Of a stretch of 64,000 bases of DNA, positions 32,292-34,739 are shown piece by piece; positions within the stretch are counted from its first letter, which is position 1; each line of letters starts with the position of its first letter. The stretch comes from Chryseobacterium sp. Leaf180. GTDB taxonomy: Bacteria; Bacteroidota; Bacteroidia; Flavobacteriales; Weeksellaceae. The notes beneath the pieces are model-generated. The model was not told the origin of the DNA. It saw only the letters and a list, made by a program, of their open reading frames with translations, and did not search any database. The stretch spans positions 340,442 to 404,441 of the forward strand of contig NZ_LMPJ01000001.1 of the NCBI RefSeq assembly GCF_001424585.1, in the 5' to 3' direction. The position numbers were made by a program, and so were the translations under genes.

Positions 32292-32328
32292 TAAAAAAGA
32301 AAACCGTTACAATAACTGTAACGGTTTT
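32292..32328 (-). terminator. Intrinsic terminator after the alpha-oxoamine synthase gene
   Basis: AAAACCGTTACA (32300-32311) and TGTAACGGTTTT (32317-32328) form a 12-base stem with a 5-base loop. The minus-strand side runs into TCTTTTTTAA. Confidence 0.92.
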
Positions 32329-32353: not shown

Positions 32354-33616
32354 TTACATCTGCTTATACTCAATATTCATTGATTTTTCCATTTCACGGT
32401 ATTCACCAGACTTCAGTTTAGATTTAATGCCCTCAAATGCTGCTAAAGTTTCGTTAATCTCTGAATCTGTGTGCGATGCAGTCGGAATTAATCTTAGTAA
32501 AATCATCCCTTTCGGTATTACTGGATAAACGACAACTGATGTAAAAACACCATAGTTTTCTCTTAAATCTTTTGCTAATAGTGTTGCTTCAATCGTAGTA
32601 CCTTCAATGAAAACCGGCGTAACGCAAGTGTTTGTATTTCCAAGGTTGAAACCGAGATCTTTCAGTCCGTTTTGAAGTTTATACACGTTTTCCCAAAGTT
32701 TATCTTTAATCTCCGGACGCGTTCTTAATAACTCAAGACGCTTCAAACCACCTATTACCATTGGCATTGTCAACGATTTAGCAAATATCTGTGAACGCAG
32801 ATTATATTTTAAATAACGGATGATTGTTTCGTCTCCAGAAAGAAAAGCTCCAAAACCAGCCATAGATTTGGCAAACGTAGAAAAATAAACATCAATCTGA
32901 TCCTGGCAACCCTGCTCTTCACCCGCTCCGGCTCCAGTTTTACCCAAAGTTCCGAAGCCGTGTGCGTCGTCTACTAAAAGTCTGAAATTGAATTTAGATT
33001 TTAAATCACAAATCTCTTTCAGCTTGCCCTGCATACCGCGCATTCCGAAAACACCTTCGGTAATGACAAGAATTCCGCCGCCATGCTCTTCAGCAACTTT
33101 AGTAGCTCTTGCTAAGTTTTTTTCTAAACTCTCAATATCGTTATGTTTAAAAGTAAAACTTTTCCCCATGTGAAGACGAACTCCATCCACGATACACGCG
33201 TGAGAATCGGCATCGTAAACAATAACGTCATGTCTTGTCACCAATGCATCGATCGCAGAAACCATTCCCTGATAACCGAAATTCAGTAGATAAGCAGCTT
33301 CCTTATGAGTGAATTCTGCAAGCTCTTTTTCCAGTTGCTGGTGCTGTGCAGTTTCTCCTGACATTGCTCTTGCGCCCATCGGATAAAACATTCCGAATTC
33401 TGCGGCAGCTTTTGCATCAGCTTCCAAAACTTCCGGATGGTTGCAAAGCCCCAAGTAGTCATTAGCACTCCAGAAAATAACTTCTTTACCCTGAAATTTC
33501 ATTCTTGGCCCGATTGGTCCTTCCAGCTTCGGAAAAACAAAATATCCTTCTGCGTAATCGGCAAACTGACCGAGTGGGCCGGGATTTTGTCTGATTCGAT
33601 CAAATATATCTAACAT
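32354..33616 (-). CDS. Alpha-oxoamine synthase, probable cysteate fatty acyltransferase (CfaA/SulA type)
   Basis: 420 residues, PLP fold type I. Motifs are WSANDYLGLCNHPEVL near residue 49-64, YLLNFGYQGMVSAIDAL, HMGKSFTFKHND, VDDAHGFGTLGKTGAG near 217, and STFAKSMAGFGAF with the Schiff-base lysine K250. The family joins an acyl thioester to an amino acid with loss of CO2 (AONS, KBL, SPT, and the capnine-forming cysteate acyltransferase of Bacteroidota). Its neighbour upstream is a cysteine-synthase-like enzyme, the arrangement expected for sulfonolipid synthesis, so I favour cysteate plus acyl-ACP as substrates over serine. That assignment is inference. Serine palmitoyltransferase is the main alternative. 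Confidence 0.85.
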   Translation of the reverse strand: MLDIFDRIRQNPGPLGQFADYAEGYFVFPKLEGPIGPRMKFQGKEVIFWSANDYLGLCNHPEVLEADAKAAAEFGMFYPMGARAMSGETAQHQQLEKELAEFTHKEAAYLLNFGYQGMVSAIDALVTRHDVIVYDADSHACIVDGVRLHMGKSFTFKHNDIESLEKNLARATKVAEEHGGGILVITEGVFGMRGMQGKLKEICDLKSKFNFRLLVDDAHGFGTLGKTGAGAGEEQGCQDQIDVYFSTFAKSMAGFGAFLSGDETIIRYLKYNLRSQIFAKSLTMPMVIGGLKRLELLRTRPEIKDKLWENVYKLQNGLKDLGFNLGNTNTCVTPVFIEGTTIEATLLAKDLRENYGVFTSVVVYPVIPKGMILLRLIPTASHTDSEINETLAAFEGIKSKLKSGEYREMEKSMNIEYKQM

Positions 33617-33650
33617 GTGTAGGAAAATTATGTAATTAATTAATGATAAG

Positions 33651-33680
33651 AAAAAAACCTTTCACGAAGAAAAGGCTTTT
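33651..33680 (-). terminator. Terminator-like hairpin between the two PLP genes
   Basis: On the minus strand AAAAGCCTTT pairs with AAAGGTTTTT (10 bases with one G-U) around an 8-base loop, followed by T residues. It lies after the stop of the 33702 gene and before the start at 33616. It may reduce rather than abolish read-through into the downstream gene, because I see no separate promoter box for that gene. Confidence 0.6.
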
Positions 33681-33701
33681 ATAATAGTTGTTTATTATCT
33701 T

Positions 33702-34739
33702 TTACTTTATAAACTCAGTTTTAAAAACTTCGTCGTAATTGTGAAAACAGTTGTTGATGAAACCCTGTTCCTCCATCCACTTGTCACTGTAAACTTTTGT
33801 GATATATCTTGAACCGTGATCAGGATAAATCATCACCACAAGATCGTTTACCATAAACTCATGCGACTGCGCGTACTGTATTAATCCCTGCGTTACTGCG
33901 CCGGTTGTATAACCACCCATGATAGCTTCTTTCAAAGCAATTTCCCGGGTGCGGTATGCCGACATTTCATCATTGACGCGAACAAATTCATCCACTTTAT
34001 CAAAAAGCAGTGCAGAGGGAATTAAGTTTTTTCCCATGCCTTCTATCTGGTAAGGATGTACATCTTCTTTATGAATCTCACCTGTTTCATGAAAACTCTT
34101 CAGAATGGAACCGTCAGCATCAACACCGATAATTTTAATGTCTGGATTTTTTTCTTTTAAATATTTAGCAGAACCAGAAAGTGTACCACCAGTTCCTGTA
34201 CAGGCAAAGAGATGCGTAATTTTACCTTCTGTCTGTTCCCAGATTTCCGGGCCGGTTGTCTTGTAATGTGCATCAATGTTCAGCTCATTATAGTACTGAT
34301 TGATGTACAGTGAATTTGGCGTCTCTGCAGCGATTCTTTTTGCCACCTCATAATAAGAACGTGGATCTGCTGCCGGAACATTTGCCGGACAAACATATAC
34401 CGTAGCGCCAAGCGCCTTTAAATAGGCGATCTTTTCAGGTTTTGTTTTATCGCTTACCGCGAGAATACATTTATAACCTTTAATTATACAAACCATGGCC
34501 AGCGAAAAGCCTGTATTTCCGGAAGTGGTTTCTACGACCACAGAACCTTCTTTCAACAAGCCTCTCTTCTCAGCATTATCTATAATGTGAGATGCAATTC
34601 TATCTTTCGTCGAATGTCCAGGATTATATGATTCTAACTTGGCATAAACAGTTGCAGGAATATCTTTCGTGACGGTATTGATTTTTACCATCGGCGTGCT
34701 TCCTATTAAGCCAAGAATATTATCGTAAACATTACCCAT
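33702..34739 (-). CDS. PLP-dependent cysteine synthase-like enzyme, probable cysteate synthase
   Basis: 345 residues, fold type II, cysteine synthase/CBS superfamily. LIGSTPMVKI is near residue 11-20. The PLP lysine is K45 in NPGHSTKDRIAS, compared with NPxxSVKDR in CysK, so the usual Ser-Val is Ser-Thr. The substrate loop VVETTSGNTGFSLAM, the CTGTGGTLSGSAKYLK phosphate loop and GGYTTGAVTQG (C-terminal PLP contact) follow. It lies 85 bases upstream of an alpha-oxoamine synthase. In sulfonolipid producers a CysK-like protein makes cysteate from O-phosphoserine (or an activated serine) and sulfite, and I infer that job here. Ordinary O-acetylserine sulfhydrylase remains possible. Confidence 0.82.
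   Translation of the reverse strand: MGNVYDNILGLIGSTPMVKINTVTKDIPATVYAKLESYNPGHSTKDRIASHIIDNAEKRGLLKEGSVVVETTSGNTGFSLAMVCIIKGYKCILAVSDKTKPEKIAYLKALGATVYVCPANVPAADPRSYYEVAKRIAAETPNSLYINQYYNELNIDAHYKTTGPEIWEQTEGKITHLFACTGTGGTLSGSAKYLKEKNPDIKIIGVDADGSILKSFHETGEIHKEDVHPYQIEGMGKNLIPSALLFDKVDEFVRVNDEMSAYRTREIALKEAIMGGYTTGAVTQGLIQYAQSHEFMVNDLVVMIYPDHGSRYITKVYSDKWMEEQGFINNCFHNYDEVFKTEFIK

Follow-up and report, generated by a model that had tools for sequence, protein, structure and literature searches.

Two neighbouring genes on the minus strand of a 64,000-nucleotide stretch of Chryseobacterium sp. Leaf180 DNA (the window, part of contig C1; genome size 3.35 Mb) were analysed, and it was concluded that they almost certainly encode the two enzymes with which sulfonolipid (capnine) synthesis begins, a cysteate synthase (CapA) and a cysteate fatty-acyltransferase (CFAT). 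The protein identities, active-site residues, adjacency of the genes and conservation of a hairpin between them were obtained from the sequence, and the reactions were taken from papers. An original prediction, made from the DNA itself, had proposed a capnine module at this place. The proposal was supported by bit scores, active-site residues and conserved adjacency, and the system was found to be already known, not new. The main features were as follows:

33702..34739, minus strand: capA (Cys), predicted cysteate synthase of pyridoxal phosphate (PLP) fold type II, 345 aa, Schiff-base Lys45
32354..33616, minus strand: CFAT (capB, sulA), predicted cysteate fatty-acyl(-ACP) transferase of the alpha-oxoamine synthase family, 420 aa, type 2 form
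33653..33680, minus strand: terminator-like hairpin, conserved, between capA and CFAT, found by folding (-8.4 kcal/mol), probable partial terminator or attenuator
32777..32779, minus strand: codon of K280 in CFAT, where Lys versus Ala separates cysteate acyltransferases from serine palmitoyltransferases

The two open reading frames (ORFs) lay head to tail, the CysK-like gene first and the acyltransferase second, with a spacer of exactly 85 bases (33617-33701); order, strand, spacing and ORF limits all agreed with what had been claimed from the letters. The two catalytic lysines that had been named were also present, K45 of CapA in NPGHSTKDRIAS and K250 of CFAT in STFAKSMAGF. The closest named matches of the window CFAT were from Chryseobacterium species, at 96% identity.

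Identity of the two enzymes

By bit scores, the product of 32354-33616 is a predicted cysteate fatty-acyltransferase, closer to characterised CFATs than to serine palmitoyltransferase or KBL. Among solved chains it scored 650 bits with 28eh ('Cysteate-C-fatty acyltransferase') and 569 bits with 7u7h (Alistipes finegoldii SulA), and the next best were a serine palmitoyltransferase at 228 bits and a KBL-type enzyme at 208 bits. The seven SulA residues that were compared (N53, H140, D217, H220, K251, K281 and R376) were all matched in the window enzyme (N52, H139, D216, H219, K250, K280 and R375). In the excerpts of PMC9304779, SulA is reported to accept cysteate, not serine or phosphoserine, and its Lys281, which is Ala in serine palmitoyltransferases, is given as a mark of cysteate enzymes. 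A search for residues separating cysteate from serine users had been recommended, and at this position the window enzyme agrees with the cysteate users, its K280 standing at SulA Lys281. Lysine was found there in all 138 further CFAT rows (80 from named loci, 56 from neighbourhoods, plus L204 and L206). The two remaining alpha-oxoamine synthases of the genome, one of them a KBL over its NCBIfam cut-off and the other passing no NCBIfam cut-off, had Asn and Ala. The serine palmitoyltransferase of Sphingobacterium multivorum (3a2b, 228 bits) is likewise an alpha-oxoamine synthase and shares its condensation chemistry with CFAT, but has Ala in place of K280.

The product of 33702-34739 is well supported, on sequence comparison, as a cysteate synthase of the CapA/Cys type. 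Its best NCBIfam family was NF053679 (CysteaSynCapA) with 535.5 bits, followed by cystathionine beta-synthase with 357. The best solved chain was PDB 9k2p with 431.5 bits, versus 253 for the best cystathionine beta-synthase; the name of the 9k2p entry does not contain 'cysteate synthase', and a GKN signature is common to 9k2p and the window CapA. Additionally, 26 positions separated CapA from its paralogues, being conserved in more than 95% of 96 CapA rows and in less than 30% of 21 chosen paralogues, that is, the genome's own (L002) and 20 hand-picked from longer match lists. The cleanest of these sites was K237-N238, which occurred in 96/96 CapA rows, versus E-D in 21/21 paralogues. His308 (in PDHGSRY) was dropped as a CapA marker because His was also present in 15 of the 21 paralogues.

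It was considered whether the acyltransferase could instead be a serine palmitoyltransferase or KBL that merely happens to lie beside an ordinary cysteine or cystathionine synthase, with no pathway meaning in their adjacency. The protein families (alpha-oxoamine synthase and PALP) are the same in that case, and the top NCBIfam names of the acyltransferase were glycine C-acetyltransferase (285.1 bits) and serine palmitoyltransferase (281.5 bits). Both scores, however, were far under the respective cut-offs of 460 and 640, and no CFAT model was among the 11 NCBIfam families listed for this protein. The CFAT chains scored 569-650 bits against 228 for serine palmitoyltransferase, K280 replaced Ala, a separate KBL was encoded elsewhere in the genome, and CapA was set apart from the chosen paralogues at the 26 positions, so that this explanation was held to be very improbable. 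Hence, serine palmitoyltransferase, KBL and BioF were rejected as identities of the acyltransferase on scores and K280, and a plain cysteine or cystathionine synthase as the identity of the first gene on scores and signature positions. A grouping of the acyltransferase with serine palmitoyltransferases or KBL, which had been named as grounds for refutation, was not seen by bit scores, the comparison being made with no tree that included serine palmitoyltransferases.

It was proposed that CapA would catalyse a PLP-dependent beta-replacement, in which the phosphate of O-phosphoserine is swapped for sulfite to give L-cysteate. At Lys250 of CFAT, cysteate would next be bound as its external aldimine and condensed with an acyl-acyl carrier protein (acyl-ACP), with release of CO2 and 3-ketocapnine. 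The lipid would be completed by an unlinked short-chain reductase together with an N-acyltransferase.

Gene linkage and the spacer hairpin

In 77 of the 80 named loci, CapA preceded CFAT with 8-116 bases between them. The three exceptions were L173, which stops at a contig edge, and L191 (Riemerella) and L192 (a Bergeyella metagenome-assembled genome, MAG), in which the stretch examined showed no CapA. Of 23 same-genus relatives, 22 had CapA immediately before CFAT, and in the remaining one (G021) the locus was cut beside CFAT, as at a contig end. The arrangement is not due to chance. In 392 genomes drawn across the phylum, a CFAT-like match at E<=1e-100 was found in 148.

Several observations weigh against the assignment of the pair to the capnine pathway. 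The window CapA fell 65 bits short of the NF053679 cut-off of 600, and the cystathionine-beta-synthase-like paralogue of the same genome (C10:245 kb) also matched NF053679 best (439 bits), slightly ahead of cystathionine beta-synthase (422 bits). CapA and CFAT were unlinked in the examined genomes of genus g3 of family f3 (probably Flavobacterium); because of these genomes, and because no CapA was seen beside CFAT in L191 and L192, the linkage is not universal. Further, the window locus contained no reductase gene, and the unlinked candidate was weak. As to the cut-off, nine CapA-like proteins from other genomes were scored against NF053679, of which three passed (622-650 bits) and six missed (474-555 bits). 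The linked CapA proteins of Chryseobacterium indologenes (543.9 bits) and of a Cloacibacterium MAG (536.9 bits) behaved like that of the window. For this branch the threshold appears to be set too high, because relatives including C. indologenes, from the same genus as Chryseobacterium gleum, for which the enzyme has been reported, also miss it. The CapA membership of the window protein was not rested on this cut-off.

The hairpin in the spacer (AAAAGCCTTTTCTTCGTGAAAGGTTTTT on the minus strand) had 11 pairs and a T-run after the stem. A terminator-like hairpin had been predicted between the genes and was indeed present there, with limits of 33653-33680 instead of 33651-33680. Under one fixed rule, a hairpin with a T-rich tail was detected in 82 of 88 distinct spacers, versus 1 of 176 dinucleotide shuffles; of the six spacers that failed, five carried a similar stem by eye and L164 did not. 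This control superseded an earlier one (96/101 real spacers and 13/130 shuffles positive), in which the shuffles were of mononucleotides, the rule was less strict and the step was coarser. The stem GCCTTTT...AAAAGGC recurred in spacers genus-wide, and a variant occurred in two sister genera.

The hairpin had been predicted to weaken the case for co-transcription. The stem and its T-run are real, but they turned out to be a conserved part of the locus. Their very conservation would also suit a full terminator, with the two genes of the capnine module forming separate transcription units. Such a division is unlikely. Only 36 bases lay between the stem and the CFAT start codon of the window, which makes a promoter after the hairpin unlikely, and no promoter-like site was found on the minus strand of the spacer in a search of sigma-70 type, by which Bacteroidota promoters are not covered. 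Moreover, of the 77 named loci with linked genes, 75 had a spacer of 67-116 bases. The conserved hairpin rather suggests, as far as sequence can indicate, an attenuator or partial terminator within one capA-CFAT transcript. This transcript would start upstream of capA, and partial termination at the hairpin would lower CFAT relative to CapA. It probably ends at a second hairpin:

32300..32328, minus strand: terminator-like hairpin 3' of CFAT, a stem of 13 pairs with CTTTTTTAAT after it

Two CFAT forms in Chryseobacterium

The identity to the window CFAT was 94-96% in 28 of the 80 named loci (type 2) and 83-88% in the other 52, sister genera included, with no named locus between; the CFAT of G131 was 93% identical. 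To type 1 enzymes of Chryseobacterium the window CFAT was about 84-86% identical. The window CapA, in turn, had 90-94% identity to nearly all Chryseobacterium of either CFAT type, and the neighbouring DUF2723 protein about 75-79%.

Trees of CFAT, CapA and DUF2723 were built by a quick method with SH-aLRT support only, and the type groups used in all tree tests were defined after the CFAT data had been seen. The CapA and DUF2723 trees comprised 74 of 83 loci (31 of the window type and 43 of all other types, including sister genera), selected for a near-complete CapA and more than 850 aligned DUF2723 residues. Type 2 formed one clade on the CFAT DNA tree (SH-aLRT 97). A single origin of type 2 was rejected on the CapA tree (10 changes, approximately unbiased test p-AU 2e-64) and on the DUF2723 tree (13 changes, p-AU 3e-41), the latter having long branches, the window among them. 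The unlinked rpoB gene, analysed in 20 of 24 same-genus genomes with 2 outgroups, also rejected it, more weakly (p-AU 0.0058), and placed G019 (type 2) as sister to G014 (type 1) with support of 100/100. On a CFAT protein tree, from which 14 near-copies were left out and for which a simple model was used, type 2 was again one clade (support 100), its named rows being all Chryseobacterium except two MAG rows labelled otherwise, and most Chryseobacterium type 1 rows formed a separate clade (23 rows, support 97).

One pair of loci, L122 (type 2) and L169 (type 1), was compared per 100 bases. Identity was 83-100% over the upstream gene, capA and the spacer, except for one step at 75%. Beyond the first 100 bases of CFAT it was 69-83% in the body of the gene, and 64-68% at the gene's end and immediately behind it; further downstream it was mostly 84-93%, with two steps at 74%. 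Distances were calculated for 51 of the 74 loci, hand-picked Chryseobacterium rows (31 + 20). The amino-acid difference of CFAT was 2.7-3.6% within types and 12.9% between them, and the third-position difference was 0.36 within type and 0.44 between, with values of 0.37-0.40 for CapA. Twenty-five CFAT positions were nearly fixed for different residues between the types, and none of the seven active-site residues was among them.

These data point to two old CFAT forms, interleaved within Chryseobacterium. Since the capA, DUF2723 and rpoB trees reject a single origin of type 2, one form would have been repeatedly replaced by the other in place. Paralogues of one old duplication with differential loss, and no recombination, would be another source of two forms: both are old, and their third-position difference within type resembles that of CapA. 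This origin is considered rather improbable, as each of the 24 same-genus genomes had one CFAT of these types, both forms were located directly behind capA, and the identity of L122 to L169 dropped over the CFAT body and about 150 bases after it and recovered beyond. The extra copies in G004 and G005 (G004:C3:85805-87043 and G005:C7:219642-220874) had about 60% identity and internal stop codons and are probably decaying genes. Open second copies of CFAT were observed in G360 (L072) and G410 (L073).

Returning to replacement in place, we tentatively put forward, as a possibility short of a favoured conclusion, that two ancient and functionally distinct CFAT forms, differing also in the C-terminal tail, have repeatedly been exchanged among species through recombination limited to CFAT, downstream of the conserved attenuator. 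Among the open papers listed in a literature search, nothing on distinct CFAT forms was found. The CFAT of C. indologenes (L189) was of type 1. As this species is a near relative of C. gleum, the C. gleum CFAT is probably also of type 1, unlike the type 2 enzyme of the window.

Reductases, other CFAT loci and known systems

A check of the genome for a 3-dehydrocapnine reductase of the short-chain dehydrogenase/reductase (SDR) kind had been suggested, and it gave a weak candidate. The genome encoded 19 SDRs by PF13561, none of them at the locus, and 17 were scanned against NCBIfam. The best candidate, L021 (G000:C8:277.7 kb), had the highest NF049977 (KdsR) score among the matches listed, 225.7 bits with a cut-off of 400. 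It was also the best match of the SDR in the G026 operon, weakly (36% over 190 aa). A clear reductase orthologue was sought through both the G026 operon SDR and NCBIfam, with weak matches only. The active C. gleum reductases are likewise unlinked, according to the excerpts of PMC11211663. In three other families, an SDR gene was located between capA and CFAT (L056, L057 with one more ORF, and L058), and in a fourth it adjoined CFAT (L059); Pfam identified the SDR in two of the four:

L056:4413-5273, plus strand: SDR gene
L057:5541-6134, plus strand: SDR gene
L058:4500-5375, minus strand: SDR gene
L059:5461-6318, minus strand: SDR gene

The placement of these SDRs by capA and CFAT fits a reductase of the same pathway, and they are likely the capnine reductases there.

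Other arrangements of CFAT were also observed. In two other families of the phylum, CFAT was fused behind AMP-ligase and acyl-carrier domains in a protein of about 1110 aa (L084:2226-5576, plus strand, and L085:4571-7897, minus strand; Pfam was run on L084 only). Both retained the CFAT Lys, and such a fused enzyme could load its own acyl chain. In five genomes distant from one another, a gene next to CFAT or close to it encoded a protein of about 350 aa of the glyoxalase/dioxygenase superfamily (VOC), checked with Pfam in one case; a role in sulfonolipid modification is conceivable:

L061:3559-4608, minus strand: VOC gene
L063:6561-7613, plus strand: VOC gene
L084:5707-6768, plus strand: VOC gene
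L085:3285-4343, minus strand: VOC gene
L106:5621-6655, plus strand: VOC gene

In family f38, CFAT was present and carried the diagnostic Lys at all seven loci examined (e.g. L086-L089 and L113-L115). For three further f38 genomes that were sampled (L261-L263), a cystathionine-synthase-like protein was the nearest match to CapA. Cysteate may there come from the archaeal-type enzyme reported for Alistipes.

The module has precedents in the genus and beyond. According to PMC11211663, the cysteate synthase and CFAT of C. gleum were already identified as the first two enzymes of the de novo pathway, and its CFAT, one of six tested in E. coli, was active there; in PMC9304779, it gave an acyl-CoA- and cysteate-dependent product. 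The Cys1/cfat1 pair of C. gleum DSM 16776 (Hou et al. 2022, cited in PMC11211663) represents the same two enzymes as the window pair, in the genus of the window's closest named relatives, so that the module is already known in this genus. In Capnocytophaga (Liu et al. 2022, via the review PMC10191378), CapA is described as carrying out phosphoserine sulfonation, CapB the condensation of cysteate with acyl-ACP, and CapC the reduction. The first two reactions are those proposed for the window pair, but the window locus has no CapC-like gene. A. finegoldii SulA (7u7h, PMC9304779) belongs to the same family as the window CFAT and has all seven compared residues in common with it. In Alistipes, however, cysteate is reportedly made by the archaeal-type enzyme instead of CapA (PMC10191378), whereas the window has CapA.

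As an orthologue of a known module, the pair makes a solid but ordinary addition. By the pathway assignment, the strain should make capnine-based sulfonolipids; for related bacteria, PMC11211663 and PMC10191378 associate such lipids with gliding, with inflammation and with the development of choanoflagellates. More than the assignment itself, it is the hairpin with its conservation and the interleaved CFAT forms that deserve a second look. The hairpin within the pair makes the control of CapA and CFAT expression testable. With two interleaved CFAT forms, a single enzyme taken as the biochemical reference may not represent every species of the genus. Nature has thereby also provided an experiment on the selectivity of the enzyme's non-catalytic part, be it for the acyl chain or the ACP. 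If the forms are functionally distinct and exchanged, the characterised C. gleum enzyme would represent just one of the two, and the choice of sulfonolipid chain or carrier would be a swappable surface trait.

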